Positions 1,395-63,410 of a stretch of 64,000 nt of DNA are shown one piece after another. The first letter of the stretch is position 1; the number at the start of each line of letters is the position of its first letter. The notes beneath the pieces were generated by a model. The model made no database searches, had not been told where the DNA came from, and saw only the letters and a list, made by a program, of their open reading frames with translations. The translations under genes were made by a program, and so were the position numbers. The stretch is from Caulobacter vibrioides (GTDB lineage: Bacteria; Pseudomonadota; Alphaproteobacteria; Caulobacterales; Caulobacteraceae): NCBI RefSeq assembly GCF_002858865.1, contig NZ_PJRR01000014.1, positions 248,001-312,000 of the forward strand. The letters run 5' to 3'.

Positions 1395-1445
1395 AGAGCG
1401 TTTTCCGATCAGCGTGAAACGGCGATCGGGTCGAAGAGCGCTCTA
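1395..1445. repeat. Palindromic module F1 (TAGAGC...GCTCTA family), copy A1
   Basis: About 51 nt with complementary ends AGAGCG and CGCTCT and an inner pair around CGATC. Its reverse complement aligns base for base with much of the module at 63358-63410 (both contain TTCACxCTGATCGG). It is followed by an 11-nt spacer and a second module. The 30 bases before it, from the TAG at 1361, look like a decayed further module. Confidence 0.75.
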
Positions 1446-1456
1446 ACCGCCTGAAA

Positions 1457-1509
1457 TAGAAACTCTTTTATCCAATCTGACTGATTCAGTCAGATCGGAA
1501 AGAGCCCTA
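1457..1509. repeat. Palindromic module F4, copy A2
   Basis: An inverted repeat of about 53 nt: CTCTTT and AATCTGACT on the left pair with AGTCAGAT and AAAGAG on the right. Its reverse complement is clearly homologous to the module at 63294-63346 (shared TTCCGATCTGACTGAA core). It is separated from its neighbours by 11 and 12 nt. Confidence 0.8.
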
Positions 1510-1521
1510 AATGTTTGATTT

Positions 1522-1573
1522 TAGAGCCTGTTTATCTGGTTTAGATGGTTCCATCTAAACCAGACAGGCTCTA
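1522..1573. repeat. Palindromic module F2, copy A3
   Basis: A 52-nt near-perfect palindrome, TAGAGCCTG...CAGGCTCTA, with inner arms TCTGGTTTAGATGG and CCATCTAAACCAGA. Its reverse complement differs at only one or two positions from the copies at 2787-2838 and 61464-61515. Its last three bases (1571-1573) are the stop codon of the LacI-family gene. Confidence 0.9.
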
Positions 1574-2608
1574 GACGCTGCTGCCGCGTACGACCAATTC
1601 GACGGGCGACAGGGTCGACTCCGCCGGCTCGCCCGCCATGCGCGCGAACAGCCGGTCGACCATCTGGCGCGCCGCGAACTCCAGATCCTGTCGCACCGTG
1701 GTCAGCGGCGGCGCGCTGTGGCGGGCCAGCACGATGTCGTCGAATCCGACCACCGCCACGTCGCGCGGAACGCTCCTGCCGGCTTCCGTCAGCGCGGCGA
1801 TCGCGGCCAGGGCGATGACGTCGGAGAAGGCGAAAACCGCGTCGAAGTCGGCGCCCGTGGCGATGAAGTCGGCGATCGCCTCGCGGGCCTCGTCCATCGT
1901 GTAGTGGGCTGACACGACCAGGGCGGGATCGAAGGCAAGCCCCGCCTCCGCAAGGCCCTGCCGATAGCCCTCGAACCGCTGGGCGGCTTCCGGCGCATGG
2001 GTGGCGCCCAGAAAGGCGATCTTCCTGCGCCCCGCCTGCGCCAGATGCGCGACCGCCAGGCGACCGCCGGCGACATTGTCGCTGCCGACGGCGCAGTAGG
2101 CCTGCCCCGGCAGTTGAGCGCCCCATACGACGAGGGGCTTGTAGGTCTGGGCGACGGCATTGAGCACGTCATGCTGGTTGCTTTGCCCGATCAGAAGCAG
2201 TCCATCGGCGCGATGGGCCTGGATGATCCGCTCCAGCCAGCCGGTCTCGGTCACGACCACCTTGTGCAGCAGCACAGCGTAGTTTCTGCGCGTGATCTCA
2301 TCGGCCAGTCGCCCGATCATCTCCAGAAAGAACGGATCCGAGATCAGCTGACCCGTCTCGTGGCCCAAAGGAATGATCACCCCGATCGTGTCGGTCTTGC
2401 GCAGTCGCAGGGATCGCGCCGACTGGTTGACCACATAGCCGTGCGTCTGGGCGATCTCCACGATCTGATCGCGCAACGGCTTGGGGATCAGGGGGTTGCC
2501 CGCCAGAGCGCGCGACACCGTAGAGATCGACACGCCCGCCATGCGCGCGATGTCGGCCATTTTCAGACGGCCTCTATCGGGCGCCGGGGCAGTCTCGGAG
2601 TTCACCAT
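1571..2608 (-). CDS. LacI family transcriptional regulator
   Basis: A 345-residue sugar-type repressor. The LacI helix-turn-helix starts at MADIARMAGVSISTVSRALA, with the hinge at about 55-70, followed by a periplasmic-binding-protein-like ligand domain (GVIIPLG..., VVGFDDI near the C-terminus, and the closing TTVRQD segment). I chose the ATG at 2608, 16 codons before the HTH; an ATG at 2560 is also possible and removes the low-complexity lead, and neither has a strong Shine-Dalgarno sequence. No sugar operon adjoins it, so the ligand is unknown. Its TAG stop is contributed by the palindromic module at 1522-1573. Confidence 0.88.
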   Translation of the reverse strand: MVNSETAPAPDRGRLKMADIARMAGVSISTVSRALAGNPLIPKPLRDQIVEIAQTHGYVVNQSARSLRLRKTDTIGVIIPLGHETGQLISDPFFLEMIGRLADEITRRNYAVLLHKVVVTETGWLERIIQAHRADGLLLIGQSNQHDVLNAVAQTYKPLVVWGAQLPGQAYCAVGSDNVAGGRLAVAHLAQAGRRKIAFLGATHAPEAAQRFEGYRQGLAEAGLAFDPALVVSAHYTMDEAREAIADFIATGADFDAVFAFSDVIALAAIAALTEAGRSVPRDVAVVGFDDIVLARHSAPPLTTVRQDLEFAARQMVDRLFARMAGEPAESTLSPVELVVRGSSV

Positions 2609-2786
2609 GAAACGACAATAAGACCCTGCGATCGCGCGAAAAGGCCCGCTGGAGTCGCATGACGCAAGGTTGAGTTCGCGTGTCGACACCTTCGAGGACG
2701 GATCGACTACCGCCCGACTCAAGCCCAGTAAACCGCTGCTGAGTCTTTATGGTTACACTCAAAGAACGGCGTTCGCCAATCGCGCC

Positions 2787-2838
2787 TAGAGCCTGTCTGG
2801 TTTAGGTGGAACCATCTAAACCAGATAAACAGGCTCTA
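2787..2838. repeat. Palindromic module F2, copy B1
   Basis: A 52-nt palindrome, TAGAGCCTG...CAGGCTCTA, with one mismatch to the reverse complement of copy A3. It is followed by a 12-nt spacer, AAATCAAACACT, nearly the same as the reverse complement of the A2-A3 spacer, and then by another module. Confidence 0.9.
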
Positions 2839-2850
2839 AAATCAAACACT

Positions 2851-2902
2851 TAGAGCCCTTTCAAACGCTTTAGATGATTCCATCTAAAGCTAAAGGGCTC
2901 TA
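2851..2902. repeat. Palindromic module F3, copy B2
   Basis: A 52-nt inverted repeat, TAGAGCCCTTT...AAAGGGCTCTA, with inner arms CTTTAGATG and CATCTAAAG. Its ends belong to the TAGAGC...GCTCTA family, but the core differs from F1, F2 and F4. Bases 2900-2902 form the stop codon of the gene to its right. Confidence 0.85.
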
Positions 2903-3682
2903 GCGATTGATCACCTTGATGATCCGTTTCGAGGAGGGGCGCCCCGCCAAACCCTGTTCCGGAGAGTAGGTGATGGTCAGGGCCCCGTCCTTCAGCGATG
3001 CCGAAGGCTTGTGACCCTCAGCCAGCAGAACGCGGGCGATGCCCGAGATCAGCGACCGGTCGCCCTTCCGCGCCATGCGCTCGAACGCTTCGGCGACGAT
3101 GGTCGCCGTGTCGGCGGCCAGGACCGAGGTCTCGGGGCGCACGTCCTGCACGGTGGCGAACTCGATGTCGCGTTGCGCAGCGCGGCTGGCGCGGGCCGTG
3201 GCGATGCGGACGCGCTGCACGAACACGTTGAACGACAGCATCGCCGGCGGCTGGATGGACTGCGCTCGCCCAGAGAGGGCCACCGCAGCGCCCATCGGCG
3301 CATCGTCGGTGAAGAGGATGATGCCGCCCAGCTTGGTGACCCGCAGGACAGGTTCGCCAAGATCGTTGCGATAGATGACGTCGCCGCGCGAGGCGGGCTG
3401 GGCCTGAAGCACCCATATTTCGGCGCTGTTGTCGAACTTGATCAGCGGCCGCGGCGCAGCCTGGTCGAAGACGAAAGCGCCGCCGGTTTCGGAAACATAG
3501 CGCGCCACAGGCGGCGCGGGCGCGCGGCGCGCCTCCCCCTGGCCCTTGTGGCCCAGCAGGGCGTCACGCAGCGAGTGCGGAAGCTGTTGGGCGTGCGCAG
3601 GCGCCCCCATGAGCATCAGAGCAGCGATCATCAGGGCCGCCCGGGCGCCCCAGTCGCCAAACTCCGCCTTGTGGAATGTCAT
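2900..3682 (-). CDS. Secreted protein of unknown function (DUF4908-like)
   Basis: A 260-residue protein from the ATG at 3682, chosen because it gives a clean Sec signal peptide: a hydrophobic run (ALMIAALMLMGAPAHA) with cleavage after AHA at about residue 31. The start at 3769 would put 29 polar residues before it. The mature part opens with LRDALLG and continues as a beta-rich domain without catalytic motifs I recognise. The pattern fits DUF4908, a family I associate with Caulobacterales, but that assignment is from memory and tentative. It lies downstream of phaB on the same strand, about 120 nt away, and ends inside a palindromic module. Confidence 0.6.
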   Translation of the reverse strand: MTFHKAEFGDWGARAALMIAALMLMGAPAHAQQLPHSLRDALLGHKGQGEARRAPAPPVARYVSETGGAFVFDQAAPRPLIKFDNSAEIWVLQAQPASRGDVIYRNDLGEPVLRVTKLGGIILFTDDAPMGAAVALSGRAQSIQPPAMLSFNVFVQRVRIATARASRAAQRDIEFATVQDVRPETSVLAADTATIVAEAFERMARKGDRSLISGIARVLLAEGHKPSASLKDGALTITYSPEQGLAGRPSSKRIIKVINR

Positions 3683-3805
3683 GCGATCCGTACTGCCCGT
3701 CGACTGGGGCGAATCTTGGACGCGTGAACGCCGATCACCCGAAGCCCGGGACATGAGGCCAAACTGCAACAGCGGCCGTCAAGTCCGGGCTTCGAGGACG
3801 CGTCC

Positions 3806-39802: not shown

Positions 39803-39921
39803 TGTTGAAAAGCCTCTGCCGGTGTTGTGGCGAGGCTGATCGGGACGCGCGCGATCGAGCGCGCACGGGCGCTATGGTCCGGTCACGCTGAGCAAGCGGC
39901 CAGACCGGACACCCCGCCGGA

Positions 39922-40122
39922 GGACGTTATCTGTCGAGGCAGGTCTCCTGGCTCACGGGTCATCGCCCCTGCCCTGGCCTTCCCGACGCATCCCCGAACC
40001 AGCTCGGCGCGTCAGTGACACGAAACGGACAGCGGCTCGCCGCTCACAGTTGCGGGGGCAGCGCCGGATTCAGGGTTTCACGCCCTCACCGACTTCCCTC
40101 TTAGCTCCGGACGCGAACGTCC
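39922..40122 (-). ncRNA. Cobalamin (B12) riboswitch upstream of metE
   Basis: The minus strand contains the classical parts in order: GGGAAGTCGGTG-like start, GAATCCGGCGCTGCCCCCGC, AACTGTGAGCGG, GTCACTG, GGGAAGG, and the B12 box AGCCAGGAGACCTGCC. P1 can close by GGACGTT with AACGTCC (40116-40122 with 39922-39928). It ends about 120 nt before the metE start. The 413-nt gap between metE and the pirin gene holds this element and the metE promoter only. Confidence 0.95.
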
Positions 40123-40163
40123 GCAGACCACGACAGCGGCAACAGACCACGCGAGGGCCAAGG

Positions 40164-60433: not shown

Positions 60434-60853
60434 ATGAGCACCGACCTGTTCCCCCAAGCCCACAGCAAGCACGATCTGGAACGGGGCTTTGCCCTCGCGC
60501 CGCGCTTCAACGCCGACGGCCTGGTCGTTGCGGTGGCCCAGCACGCCGACACTGGTGAGATCCTGATGCTGGCCTGGATGAACGCCGAGGCGCTGAAGCT
60601 GACCGTCGAAACGCAGATCGCGCACTACTTCAGTCGCTCGCGCAACGAACTCTGGAAGAAGGGCGACACCAGCGGCCAGCTGCAGGACGTGGTCGAGCTG
60701 CGGGTCGACTGCGACCAGGATGCGGTGCTGCTCAAGGTGCGACCGCGCGGCGACGGCGGGGCCTGCCATGTGGGCTTCCGGTCGTGCTTCTATCGTGTGC
60801 TGGAGAACGGGGTGCTGGTCGAACGCGAAGCGCCGCTCCATGACCACGCCTGA
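60434..60853 (+). CDS. hisI: Phosphoribosyl-AMP cyclohydrolase
   Basis: 139 residues, the third step of histidine synthesis: opening of the purine ring of PR-AMP. It has MLAWMNAEALKLTVET, YFSRSRNELWKKGDTSGQLQ, and metal ligands in VDCDQDAVLLKVRP with a later conserved Cys (ACHVGFRSCFY). It is the stand-alone form, not fused to HisE. It overlaps the LysE gene by 14 nt. Confidence 0.97.
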   Translation: MSTDLFPQAHSKHDLERGFALAPRFNADGLVVAVAQHADTGEILMLAWMNAEALKLTVETQIAHYFSRSRNELWKKGDTSGQLQDVVELRVDCDQDAVLLKVRPRGDGGACHVGFRSCFYRVLENGVLVEREAPLHDHA

Positions 60854-61466
60854 GGCCCTGATCGCCTTCACCCTGGCCGCAGGTCTCTTGACCCTGACGC
60901 CGGGCCTGGACACCGCGCTGGTGATCCGCACGGCCGCCGCCGAAGGCCCGCGTCGCGCCGCCGGCGCGGCGATCGGGATCGGACTGGGATGTCTGATCTG
61001 GGGCGCGGCCGCCTCGTTCGGAGTCGGCGCCCTGCTGACCGCGTCCCAAACCGCCTACACGGTGCTGAAATGGGTCGGCGCGCTTTATCTGGCCTGGACG
61101 GGCCTGCGGATGATCCTGAAGCCGCGCGAGGCGTTTGAGCCCGGCGAGACCAGGGCCGTGGACGCAGGTCCGATGGCGGCGCTGCGCCGGGGTCTGTTGA
61201 CCAACCTGCTCAATCCCAAGGTCGGGATCTTCTACGTCTCGTTTCTGCCCCAGTTCATGCCGGTCGGCGTTGATCCGGCGCGCTTTGGCCTTCTGCTGAC
61301 GACGATCCATGTCGTGGAGGGCCTGTTGTGGTTCGCACTCTTGATCGCGGCCACCGTCCCGATCGCAGGACTTTTGCGACTGCCGGGGGTGGTCCGTTGG
61401 CTGGACCGGACCACCGGCCTGGTGTTCGTGGCGTTCGGACTGCGCCTGGCGCTGGACCGGCGCTAG
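60840..61466 (+). CDS. LysE family translocator
   Basis: A 208-residue inner-membrane exporter of the LysE/RhtB type: the first helix with FTLAAGLLTLTPGLDTALVI (the LTPGPD-like signature with D), GAAIGIGLGCLIWGAAASFG, and LLTNLLNPKVGIFYVSFLPQ. Six helices in all. Members export amino acids or related small molecules. It overlaps hisI by 14 nt, suggesting coupling. Its TAG stop is the first triplet of the palindromic module at 61464. Confidence 0.92.
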   Translation: MTTPEALIAFTLAAGLLTLTPGLDTALVIRTAAAEGPRRAAGAAIGIGLGCLIWGAAASFGVGALLTASQTAYTVLKWVGALYLAWTGLRMILKPREAFEPGETRAVDAGPMAALRRGLLTNLLNPKVGIFYVSFLPQFMPVGVDPARFGLLLTTIHVVEGLLWFALLIAATVPIAGLLRLPGVVRWLDRTTGLVFVAFGLRLALDRR

Positions 61467-61515
61467 AGCCTGTCTGGTTTAGATGGAAACCTCTAAACCA
61501 GATAAACAGGCTCTA
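61464..61515. repeat. Palindromic module F2, copy C1
   Basis: 52 nt, TAGAGCCTG...CAGGCTCTA, two mismatches from the reverse complement of copy A3. Its first three bases are the stop codon of the LysE-family gene. An 11-nt spacer (ATTCATAGACT) leads to the next module. Confidence 0.92.
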
Positions 61516-61526
61516 ATTCATAGACT

Positions 61527-61578
61527 TAGAGCGCGTTCGAGCGGTTTAACCGCTCACACTTAAACCTAACGCCCTCTA
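61527..61578. repeat. Palindromic module F1 variant, copy C2
   Basis: 52 nt, TAGAGCGCGTTCGAG...GCCCTCTA, with a central GAGCGGTTTAACCGCTC palindrome. The ends and TCACACTTAAACC stretch parallel the F1 modules of loci A and D, with a different core. Its last three bases are the stop codon of phoD. Confidence 0.8.
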
Positions 61579-63270
61579 AGCCTCGCGCAGCGCCTCCACC
61601 CCGCCGTCAGCCGAGGGCGTGACCACGAAGCGCTTCATCGCAGCCAGCTCGTAAGTCGGCTTCATGATGGTCGAGACCGCCATCAGTTCGCTGGTCGCCT
61701 TGCCGTGTTCGAGCGTCAGCAGCACGAAGCCCTTGGCGCTGGGGTGGGCGTACTTCACTTCCTTGTTGCGCTGCACGAAGGCCTCGCCGATCGGCACGCC
61801 GGGCAGGTAGTCGCCATAGCCGGGCGAGGTAACCGAGGTGGTCCCGAACTCGACCGCCACGCGCTTCTGGCCCGCGTCGTTCCAGAGTTCATTGGCCCAG
61901 AACATGTGGCTGTCGCCGGCCAGCACGATCGGACGCGCCTTGGCGGCCGTAAAGATGTCGTAGACCCGCTGGCGATCGGCCGGATAGCCGTCCCAGGCGT
62001 CCAGATTGGACGGCACGTCGAAGGCCGACATCGCCACCGACTGATCCACCCGCTTACGCGCGTATTCCGGCAGCTTGGCCTGCAGGTCGCCATAGGCCGC
62101 CTCGCCCATGGTGGCCTTCAGGTTGGCCGAGGCGACGCGCGCCATCACCACCTGGTTGCCGAGAACCTGCCAGGCGGTCTTGGCCTGGACCGAGGCGCCG
62201 ACCTGGCCGGCCAGCCACTGTTCCTGTCCCTCGCCCATCATCCGGCGCGACGGATCCTTCCACTTGGCCACGAAGGCCGCGACATCGGGCTTGCCATCGA
62301 CGATCGGCATGTCCCGGTCGTAGCTCAGCTCGGGGGTGCGGGCGGTCAGCCGGGTCTCGACCATCAGCAAGGACGCGACGTCGCCGAACTGGAACGACCG
62401 CCAGGCCGCTTCCGGCAGGGCCGCTTCGCGGATGGGCATCCACTCGTAATAGGCCTTCAGGGCGGCGGCCTTGCGGGCCGTCCAGTCGCCCTCGCCCTTG
62501 TCGGGATCATGGTTCTCGGCGCCGCCGACCCAGCTGTCGTTGGCGGTCTCATGATCGTCCCAAGCCACGATCCACGGCGCGCGCGCGTGGGCGGCCTGCA
62601 GAGCCGGATCGGTCTTGTACTGCGCGTGGCGGCGACGATAGTCGTCCAGGGTGACGATCTCGTGCGGCGGCTCGGGCGTGCGGGACTTCGCCACCGGCGA
62701 GTTCATGCCGTAGTCCTGCGGCGCGCCGCCATACTCGTAGATGTAGTCGCCCAGATGCACGACGGCGTCGACGCGCGGCAGCTTGGCGATGGCGTCGTAG
62801 GCGTTGAAGTAGCCGTTCGGATAGAGGCTGCAGGAGACCACCGCCAGCACCGCGTCCTTGGCCGCGCCCTTCACAAGGGTCTTGGTCCGACCGACCGGCG
62901 AGGTGACCCCATTGGCCTTGAAGCGGTACCAGTACTCGGTCCCCGGCTTGAGCCCCTGGCCATCCAGGTCGTGCTTGACGGTCCAGTCGCGGCTGGCGCG
63001 GGCGCGAAGGCCGCGGCTGGCGGTGACCAGGGTCTTGAAATCCGGGTCGGCGGCGACTTCAAGATCGACGTCGATGTCGCCGGTGGTCGCCTGCTTTGGC
63101 GTCACACGGGTCCAGAAGATCACATAGGTAAGGCCCGGATCGCCGCTGGCCACGCCGTGCTCAAAGGCGACGGGGCCCTTGAAGTAGCTGATCGGTTGAG
63201 CGGCGGCCTCACCGGCGGCGGCGCCCGAAACGCCCAGCAAGCCCAACAGTCTGCGACGATCGATGGTCAT
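61576..63270 (-). CDS. phoD: Alkaline phosphatase D (PhoD family)
   Basis: 564 residues. The N-terminus DRRRLLGLLGVSGAAAGEAA is a twin-arginine signal, so the enzyme is exported folded. It has the PhoD motifs FEHGVASGDPGLTYVIFWTR, VVHLGDYIYEYG, VAWDDHETANDSWVGG with metal ligands, and VLAGDSHMFWANEL. It hydrolyses phosphate esters or diesters with calcium/iron. Next to it lies a TonB receptor, suggesting a phosphate- or organophosphate-related uptake unit; I see no clear Pho box. It ends in module C2. Confidence 0.93.
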   Translation of the reverse strand: MTIDRRRLLGLLGVSGAAAGEAAAQPISYFKGPVAFEHGVASGDPGLTYVIFWTRVTPKQATTGDIDVDLEVAADPDFKTLVTASRGLRARASRDWTVKHDLDGQGLKPGTEYWYRFKANGVTSPVGRTKTLVKGAAKDAVLAVVSCSLYPNGYFNAYDAIAKLPRVDAVVHLGDYIYEYGGAPQDYGMNSPVAKSRTPEPPHEIVTLDDYRRRHAQYKTDPALQAAHARAPWIVAWDDHETANDSWVGGAENHDPDKGEGDWTARKAAALKAYYEWMPIREAALPEAAWRSFQFGDVASLLMVETRLTARTPELSYDRDMPIVDGKPDVAAFVAKWKDPSRRMMGEGQEQWLAGQVGASVQAKTAWQVLGNQVVMARVASANLKATMGEAAYGDLQAKLPEYARKRVDQSVAMSAFDVPSNLDAWDGYPADRQRVYDIFTAAKARPIVLAGDSHMFWANELWNDAGQKRVAVEFGTTSVTSPGYGDYLPGVPIGEAFVQRNKEVKYAHPSAKGFVLLTLEHGKATSELMAVSTIMKPTYELAAMKRFVVTPSADGGVEALREA

Positions 63271-63293: not shown

Positions 63294-63346
63294 TAGAGCC
63301 CCTTCCGATCTGACTGAACCAATCAGATCGGATAAAAAGGGCTCTA
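63294..63346. repeat. Palindromic module F4, copy D1
   Basis: 53 nt, TAGAGCCCCTTCCGATCTGA...GGGCTCTA, homologous in the same orientation to the reverse complement of 1457-1509. It lies 23 nt before the phoD start and is followed by an 11-nt spacer. Confidence 0.88.
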
Positions 63347-63357
63347 TTTCAAAAATT

Positions 63358-63410
63358 TAGAGCGTTTTTTCGATCCGATCACCACTTCACACTGATCGGG
63401 GAGCGCTCTA
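63358..63410. repeat. Palindromic module F1, copy D2
   Basis: 53 nt, TAGAGCGTTTTTTCGATCC...GAGCGCTCTA, closely matching the reverse complement of 1395-1445. It ends 46 nt from the TonB-receptor stop codon. Confidence 0.88.

Follow-up and report, generated by a model that had tools for sequence, protein, structure and literature searches.

The four composite repeats of a Caulobacter vibrioides window are very probably copies of a known kind of short mobile repeat, and some of their ends serve as stop codons

The Caulobacter CcrM-associated intergenic repeats (CIR) probably belong with the RIME of rhizobia and the Bru-RS elements of Brucella, in which Bru-RS1/2 are hot spots for IS711, an insertion sequence of the IS5 type. 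CIR were reported by Chen and Shapiro in 2003 (J Bacteriol 185:4997) and are described, in the available parts of two later papers (PMC2229807, PMC10969869), as elements of ~110 bp with two long inverted repeats as arms, a linker, TA termini, and GANTC at the loop of one arm, lying between genes in Caulobacter and other alpha-proteobacteria. The available part of the first paper has a 2007 table in which the CIR target duplication is entered as "?", and says that the mechanism of mobility needs more information (PMC2229807). Two further systems are described, again in the available parts of the sources: IS711 of Brucella, with a TA duplication in YTAR (PMC2266754), and REPs, palindromes of 20–40 bp with a GTAG or CGTC tag at one end (PMC3733652). 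In titles and the starts of abstracts of the open-licence literature, we found no treatment of CIR target sites or stop codons.

We analyzed a window of 64,000 nucleotides of Caulobacter vibrioides, in which a first-pass annotation had marked four loci (A to D) made of palindromic modules bounded by TAGAGC and GCTCTA. All four are present where it had placed them, and the motifs exceed shuffle expectation: TAGAGC occurs 25 times on both strands against 12.2 expected from dinucleotide-preserving shuffles, a count of 25 being reached in 1 of 100 of these, and the window has 6 copies of TAGAGC-N38-42-GCTCTA, where mononucleotide shuffles yielded 0.01 each. The loci and their flanking genes are as follows.

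1395..1573, minus strand: locus A, an F4-F1 element with an F2 hairpin and a 12-nt linker joined at its left TA
1522..1573, minus strand: F2 hairpin of locus A, with a terminal CTA (1571-1573) that forms the TAG stop of a LacI-family gene
1571-2722, minus strand: LacI-family gene, its TAG stop supplied by the F2 end of locus A
2787..2902, plus strand: locus B, a complete F2-F3 composite (F2 2787-2838, 12-nt linker 2839-2850, F3 2851-2902)
2900..3769, minus strand: gene for a DUF4908 protein (PF16252, 438 bits), its TAG stop (2900-2902) being the right end of locus B; start codon set mechanically
60720..61466, plus strand: LysE-type translocator gene (PF01810), its TAG stop (61464-61466) being the left end of locus C; start codon set mechanically
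61464..61578, plus strand: locus C, an F2-G1 composite (F2 61464-61515, 11-nt linker 61516-61526, G1 61527-61578)
61576..63270, minus strand: PhoD-like phosphatase gene (PF09423), its TAG stop (61576-61578) being the right end of locus C
63294..63410, plus strand: locus D, an F4-F1 composite (F4 63294-63346, 11-nt linker 63347-63357, F1 63358-63410), upstream of the start of the PhoD-like phosphatase gene

The annotated feet need correcting at two loci. Locus A reads F2-linker-F4-F1 on the minus strand and has both hexamers intact in F2 only; its F4 begins TAGGGC and its F1 finishes CGCTCTC. The second module of locus C, which finishes with CCTCTA, belongs to a type of its own, G1, rather than being the F1 variant that the annotation had called it. 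The F3 module of locus B carries GATTC near its loop.

Copies also lie elsewhere in this genome (3.97 Mb in 25 contigs). Seven seeds were used to assign modules in 56 stretches retrieved from the surroundings of copies. This gave 59 clusters of modules, most of them fixed pairs, namely F2-F3 (18), F4-F1 (9), E1-E2 (8), and F2-G1 (3). Solitary modules were F2 (7), F4 (5), F1 (3), and G1 (1), several of the solitary F2 copies being followed by the linker and then by the beginning of a disrupted second arm, and F2-F4-F1, F2-F3-F2, E1-F3, F4-F1-E1-E2, and F2 with a reversed F4 occurred once each. Forty clusters were two-module clusters of 110–117 bp. Because of this tally, the proposed single order of F2, then F3 or F4, then F1 becomes a set of separate two-hairpin families plus locus A; the fixed pairing itself stands. 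Distant copies are nearly identical, as the annotation had noted: in a BLAST search of the genome with locus B, 16 of 18 full-length matches (85–100% identity) reached at least 94%, and locus D gave 4 matches of 93–100% over 116–117 nt plus weaker ones. The loose form TAGAGC-N30-50-GCTCTA was found at 67 places in this genome against 32 for a reversed control; thus, part of the loose-form matches are due to chance. Shorter single hairpins of 42 nt with TAGAGC feet and other stems were also seen (G000:C4:266203-266244, G000:C5:76937-76978, and G000:C15:86246-86287), one of them occurring as two identical copies.

Across the genus, the composite pattern with an 11-nt linker, which misses elements with a 12-nt linker, was found in 30 of the 75 genomes. 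In a genome scan it occurred in at least 114 stretches, mostly of Caulobacter, Phenylobacterium, Rhizobium, and Mesorhizobium; single records elsewhere among the matches listed, e.g. Helicobacter and Porphyromonas, are probably chance. The matches listed gave 80 unique full composites (17 from this genome, 8 from the genus, and 55 from named records; the last include some that probably arose by chance, Helicobacter among them). Among them, the linker was 12 nt in 42, 11 nt in 37, and 10 nt in 1, where 9–14 nt was allowed. These are composite modular elements of fixed order and spacing, as first proposed, rather than scattered hairpins in random arrangement. The modules are ~48–54 nt long with the same hexamer at both feet (TAGAGC/GCTCTA), and in 64 of the 80 listed composites they form bulged hairpins that face each other, the bulge lying on the linker side. 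The stems covary: 90% of cells were paired in 38 alpha arms of 52 nt, against a mean of 71% and a maximum of 75% in 500 partner shuffles, a test in which the search pattern fixes six foot pairs and the shuffles do not keep relatedness. We typed 87 of the 127 unique arms among the matches listed, 46 with a loop like GGAAYC and 41 with a loop like GTGKGAARCGG; GANTC is present in 29 of the 46 and in 2 of the 41, respectively. At least one arm carries GANTC at its middle in 42 of the 80 listed composites, and both arms do in 2.

The composite pattern itself demands TA at its ends, and therefore the claim that the elements terminate in TA rests on empty sites and on mechanical flanking frames. We searched 34 of the 42 composites of this genome for empty sites in relatives (32 by joined flanks and 2 through the window), using sets of 8 and 3 relatives plus the genus, from which 20 were fetched and 10 used. 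Comparisons were obtained for 29 composites; L167, L177, L180, L187, and L191 gave none, and L152 (a 60-nt piece only), L158, L170, L178, two of the three at L181, L182, and L185 were left out, a further F4-F1 cluster at L187 not being among the 42. At 17 of the 29 sites, one or more relatives lack the element and have exactly TA in its place, which identifies the whole composite as the mobile unit. The 98 site–genome comparisons comprised exact TA (35), another 2 nt (11), another short sequence or overlap (30), and an insert (22). The 4-mers at the 35 exact-TA sites were CTAG (14), CTAA (8), TTAG (6), CTAT (4), TTAA (1), ATAG (1), and ATAA (1), so that 29 of 35 conform to YTAR, CTAG being the best and the remaining 6 being CTAT, ATAG, or ATAA. 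The empty sites establish insertion at TA; the second TA is probably a true duplication of the target rather than an element end that resembles it.

Some insertions are recent. In relative G046, the 29 sites were exact TA (11), occupied by the same family (7), occupied by another family at the same TA (4), occupied by a half element (1), or lacking the element as well as an exact TA (6). Locus B is empty there with TA in place and flanks 100% and 99% identical, and the same state, filled in this genome and empty in G046 with flanks 96–100% identical across the set, holds for the first element at L154 and for L190. The recent spread suggested by the annotation is thereby borne out, and gene conversion, its other explanation for near-identity, is unnecessary because the empty sites show insertion. 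Locus C is common to this genome and G046 and is exactly TA in G070, G065, G022, and G005, while G044 carries a different composite at that gene junction. Locus D is shared with G046; the element is missing from G044, G072, G070, and G027, but the sites there read CTGG or CTAA, and we therefore did not count it as an exact-TA site. At locus A, G046 has the F4-F1 part only, with the same flanks, and the 64 nt of F2 and linker are missing exactly at that junction; G070 has no element. On this alignment, locus A appears to be an F2 and linker joined to an older F4-F1 exactly at the TA of the older element, either by insertion of a half element or by insertion of a whole F2-F3 followed by loss of F3.

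A different repeat was also seen. At L146, the flank just right of the element (query 292-404) holds a ~110-nt repeat of the CTCCCCC...GGGGGAG type, which matches dozens of places in G046, G072, and G070 taken together. Sequence resembling CTCCCCC...GGGGGAG also fills the locus C gene junction in several relatives (e.g. L200-L204, L207, L212, and L213).

Four of the 29 sites (L138, L161, L163, and L164) differ in family between this genome and G046 at the same TA, with flanks 96–99% identical, which could mean that an occupied site exchanges its CIR family for a different one in a cassette-like manner. Assuming 40–80 copies in G046, random placement over all CTAG predicts 0.43–0.86 such coincidences (P 0.001–0.012), and placement over all YTAR gives P below 0.001; furthermore, no relative has an exact-TA empty site at L138 or L161. 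However, P rises to 0.01–0.10 if only half of the CTAG sites tolerate insertion, and 5 relatives have an empty TA site at L164, as G070 does at L163, so that independent insertion at a preferred CTAG suffices for these two. We regard exchange as distinctly improbable.

Much of the placement of the elements at gene ends is explained by the same target. Among 83 intact ends adjoined by a frame of at least 100 codons, the stop lay exactly at the terminal TAG in 43, before the element in 34, and inside it in 6; for terminal against inside stops (43 versus 6), with one third expected, the probability is 4e-15. One or both ends supply such a stop in 35 of the 59 clusters, and both ends do in 8 of 59. 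The base preceding TAGAG was C in 34 cases, T in 11, G in 2, and A in 1, and the base following CTCTA was G in 33, A in 5, and T in 1. As background, 20 of the 33 CTAG in the window lie inside the stop of a frame of at least 100 codons, a share that drops to 16 of 33 at 150 codons and 15 of 33 at 200 codons. Since 35 of 59 clusters is similar to 20 of 33 CTAG, the element end acts as the stop of the adjoining frame no more often than the CTAG preference predicts, and no preference for stop codons beyond CTAG has to be invoked. With the strict pattern, 21 of 38 ends in this genome were stops; among the matches listed, the shares were 22 of 48 in named Caulobacterales, 8 of 28 in Rhizobium-like records, and 2 of 14 in Mesorhizobium, for 98 of at least 114 named loci grouped by hand, with 8 elements near a locus edge dropped.

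The build of the elements, two hairpins inverted relative to each other with covarying stems (64 of the 80 listed composites), had suggested a modular version of BIME/REP elements. Such elements are spread by RAYT, a Y1 HUH transposase that excises single-stranded hairpins and inserts them beside a TA-containing target; insertion without duplication beside YTA cannot be told from TA duplication by sequence alone, and this genome and G046 each have one Y1_Tnp match. The likeness in build holds, but kinship does not follow from it, for the modules are longer than REPs and carry an identical hexamer at both feet rather than a tag at one end. The distribution of the enzyme points in the wrong direction: of the 30 genomes with the composite pattern, 4 carry Y1_Tnp, against 18 of the 45 without it (Fisher p 0.019; counts transcribed by hand, and genomes with only 12-nt-linker elements counted as without because the pattern is built on an 11-nt linker). 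Among genomes with at least 8 pattern matches, 2 of 11 carry it. A profile search of genus genomes did not find it in G073, G072, or G022, and none of 30 Y1 loci (95,560 bases) contained a CIR module. On the Y1 distribution and the module-free loci, we rejected RAYT as a general mobilizer, and consider the reading of the elements as REPs, BIMEs, or REPINs very improbable. Locus L194 (1459-2124) holds a lone RAYT-like Y1 transposase gene of 221 aa (PF01797, 32.5 bits), and the 3.3 kb of this locus contain no CIR module.

Another candidate is that the elements are MITEs of an IS711-like (IS5-type) insertion sequence, which would supply the transposase in trans. The TA at both ends and the YTAR target, seen at 29 of 35 empty sites, equal the signature reported for IS711, and relatives contain two IS5-type elements with CTAG at both ends (L293 1408-2252, 845 bp; L279 1398-2254, 857 bp). 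The ends of these two, GGCTCAGGAC and GGGCCAATCG after TA, are nevertheless unlike CIR ends (GAGC), and the CIR ends have in common only the short TAGAGC-type inverted repeat. At a further IS5-type locus, L304, hexamers stand on both sides, with inverted ends that do not match. Neither DUF4096 nor DDE_Tnp_1 was found in this genome or in most of the copy-rich relatives searched: DUF4096 is absent from 8 of the 11 genomes with at least 8 pattern matches, this genome included, and of 9 genomes searched for DDE_Tnp_1, 1 had it. Across the genus, 25 of 75 genomes have DUF4096, and its presence is unrelated to the pattern (11 of 30 with the pattern, 14 of 45 without). A non-exhaustive set of 30 IS5-type loci contained no insertion sequence with CIR-like inverted ends, on which ground we rejected the IS5 type as the mobilizer; the MITE explanation as a whole is, in our judgment, rather unlikely. 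An IS630 origin was likewise rejected, DDE_3 being missing from this genome, the one genome searched for it.

Strong hairpins with covarying stems at gene ends could also be intergenic terminators or other RNA structures under selection, kept alike by function and gene conversion rather than by mobility. However, scans for terminators, hairpins followed by a T run, were at chance in both regions (2 against 1.6, one of the two touching element B; 0 against 1.6). At gathering scores, no Rfam family matched the window elements or the 7 fetched stretches, and an Rfam identity was rejected. Together with presence and absence that is precise to a single nucleotide between genomes whose flanks are 96–100% alike, these results make a purely functional origin highly implausible. 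The single Rfam match in the window is a cobalamin riboswitch (39921-40147, minus strand, 111.9 bits).

We conclude that the four copies in the window very probably represent a type of short mobile repeat already known from Caulobacter and related bacteria. It is likely that they are CIR-type non-autonomous elements, each a facing pair of bulged hairpins that a trans-acting transposase inserts whole at TA in YTAR. The mobile unit would be two bulged ~52-nt hairpins facing across a 10–12-nt linker on TAGAGC/GCTCTA feet, and its insertion would leave TA at both ends. In this GC-rich genome CTAG lies mostly within stop codons, and therefore insertions would often land there. The element begins with TAG and finishes with CTA, and as read from the sequence a flanking gene, or both of two convergent genes that share one CTAG, therefore keeps a TAG stop. 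Further insertions at the ends of resident copies may then give tandem and chimeric arrays such as locus A. More tentatively, CIR may be transposons whose ends double as stop codons and whose facing bulged hairpins are recognized, for insertion at TA in CTAG, by a transposase outside Y1, DUF4096, and DDE_Tnp_1 (and, for this genome only, DDE_3). If so, an element could enter a dense genome without breaking genes, at times through the stop that two convergent genes share. Insertion at YTAR accounts for much of the gene-end placement, and the empty sites make CIR mobility a testable transposition; comparing them also yields a list of probably young copies for the enzyme hunt. Annotators of these genomes should note that in some cases the end of a gene is the end of a repeat.

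Among known systems, REP, BIME, and REPIN elements share with these repeats an inverted hairpin pair dispersed between genes and differ in being built of REPs of 20–40 bp, as the available part of the source describes them (PMC3733652), against modules of ~48–54 nt footed by TAGAGC/GCTCTA at both sides with no Y1 link. IS711 shares the TA in YTAR, as reported in the available part of its source (PMC2266754), but is a coding element of 842 bp, whereas CIR are non-coding at ~115 bp, and searches with two families detected no IS5-type gene in this genome. With the Rhizobium-specific intergenic mosaic elements (RIME), known here by name only, the repeats share an occurrence in Rhizobium and Mesorhizobium records. 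The fit is closest to CIR, compared by the description in the available parts of the papers (PMC2229807, PMC10969869) rather than by sequence: the elements are 110–117 bp with two arms and a linker of 10–12 nt (80 of 80 composites among the matches listed), TA stands at both termini of intergenic copies, as judged from empty sites and mechanical flanking frames, and the distribution agrees as well. GANTC, given there at the loop of one arm, lies mid-arm in the 42 of 80 composites counted above. The elements depart from that description in that TA in YTAR takes the place of the "?" in the 2007 table, and that ends of the elements act as stop codons. Insertion of the whole composite at TA in YTAR, stops supplied by element ends, family differences at the same TA, and facing bulged hairpins are thus what this analysis adds to the known picture of CIR.
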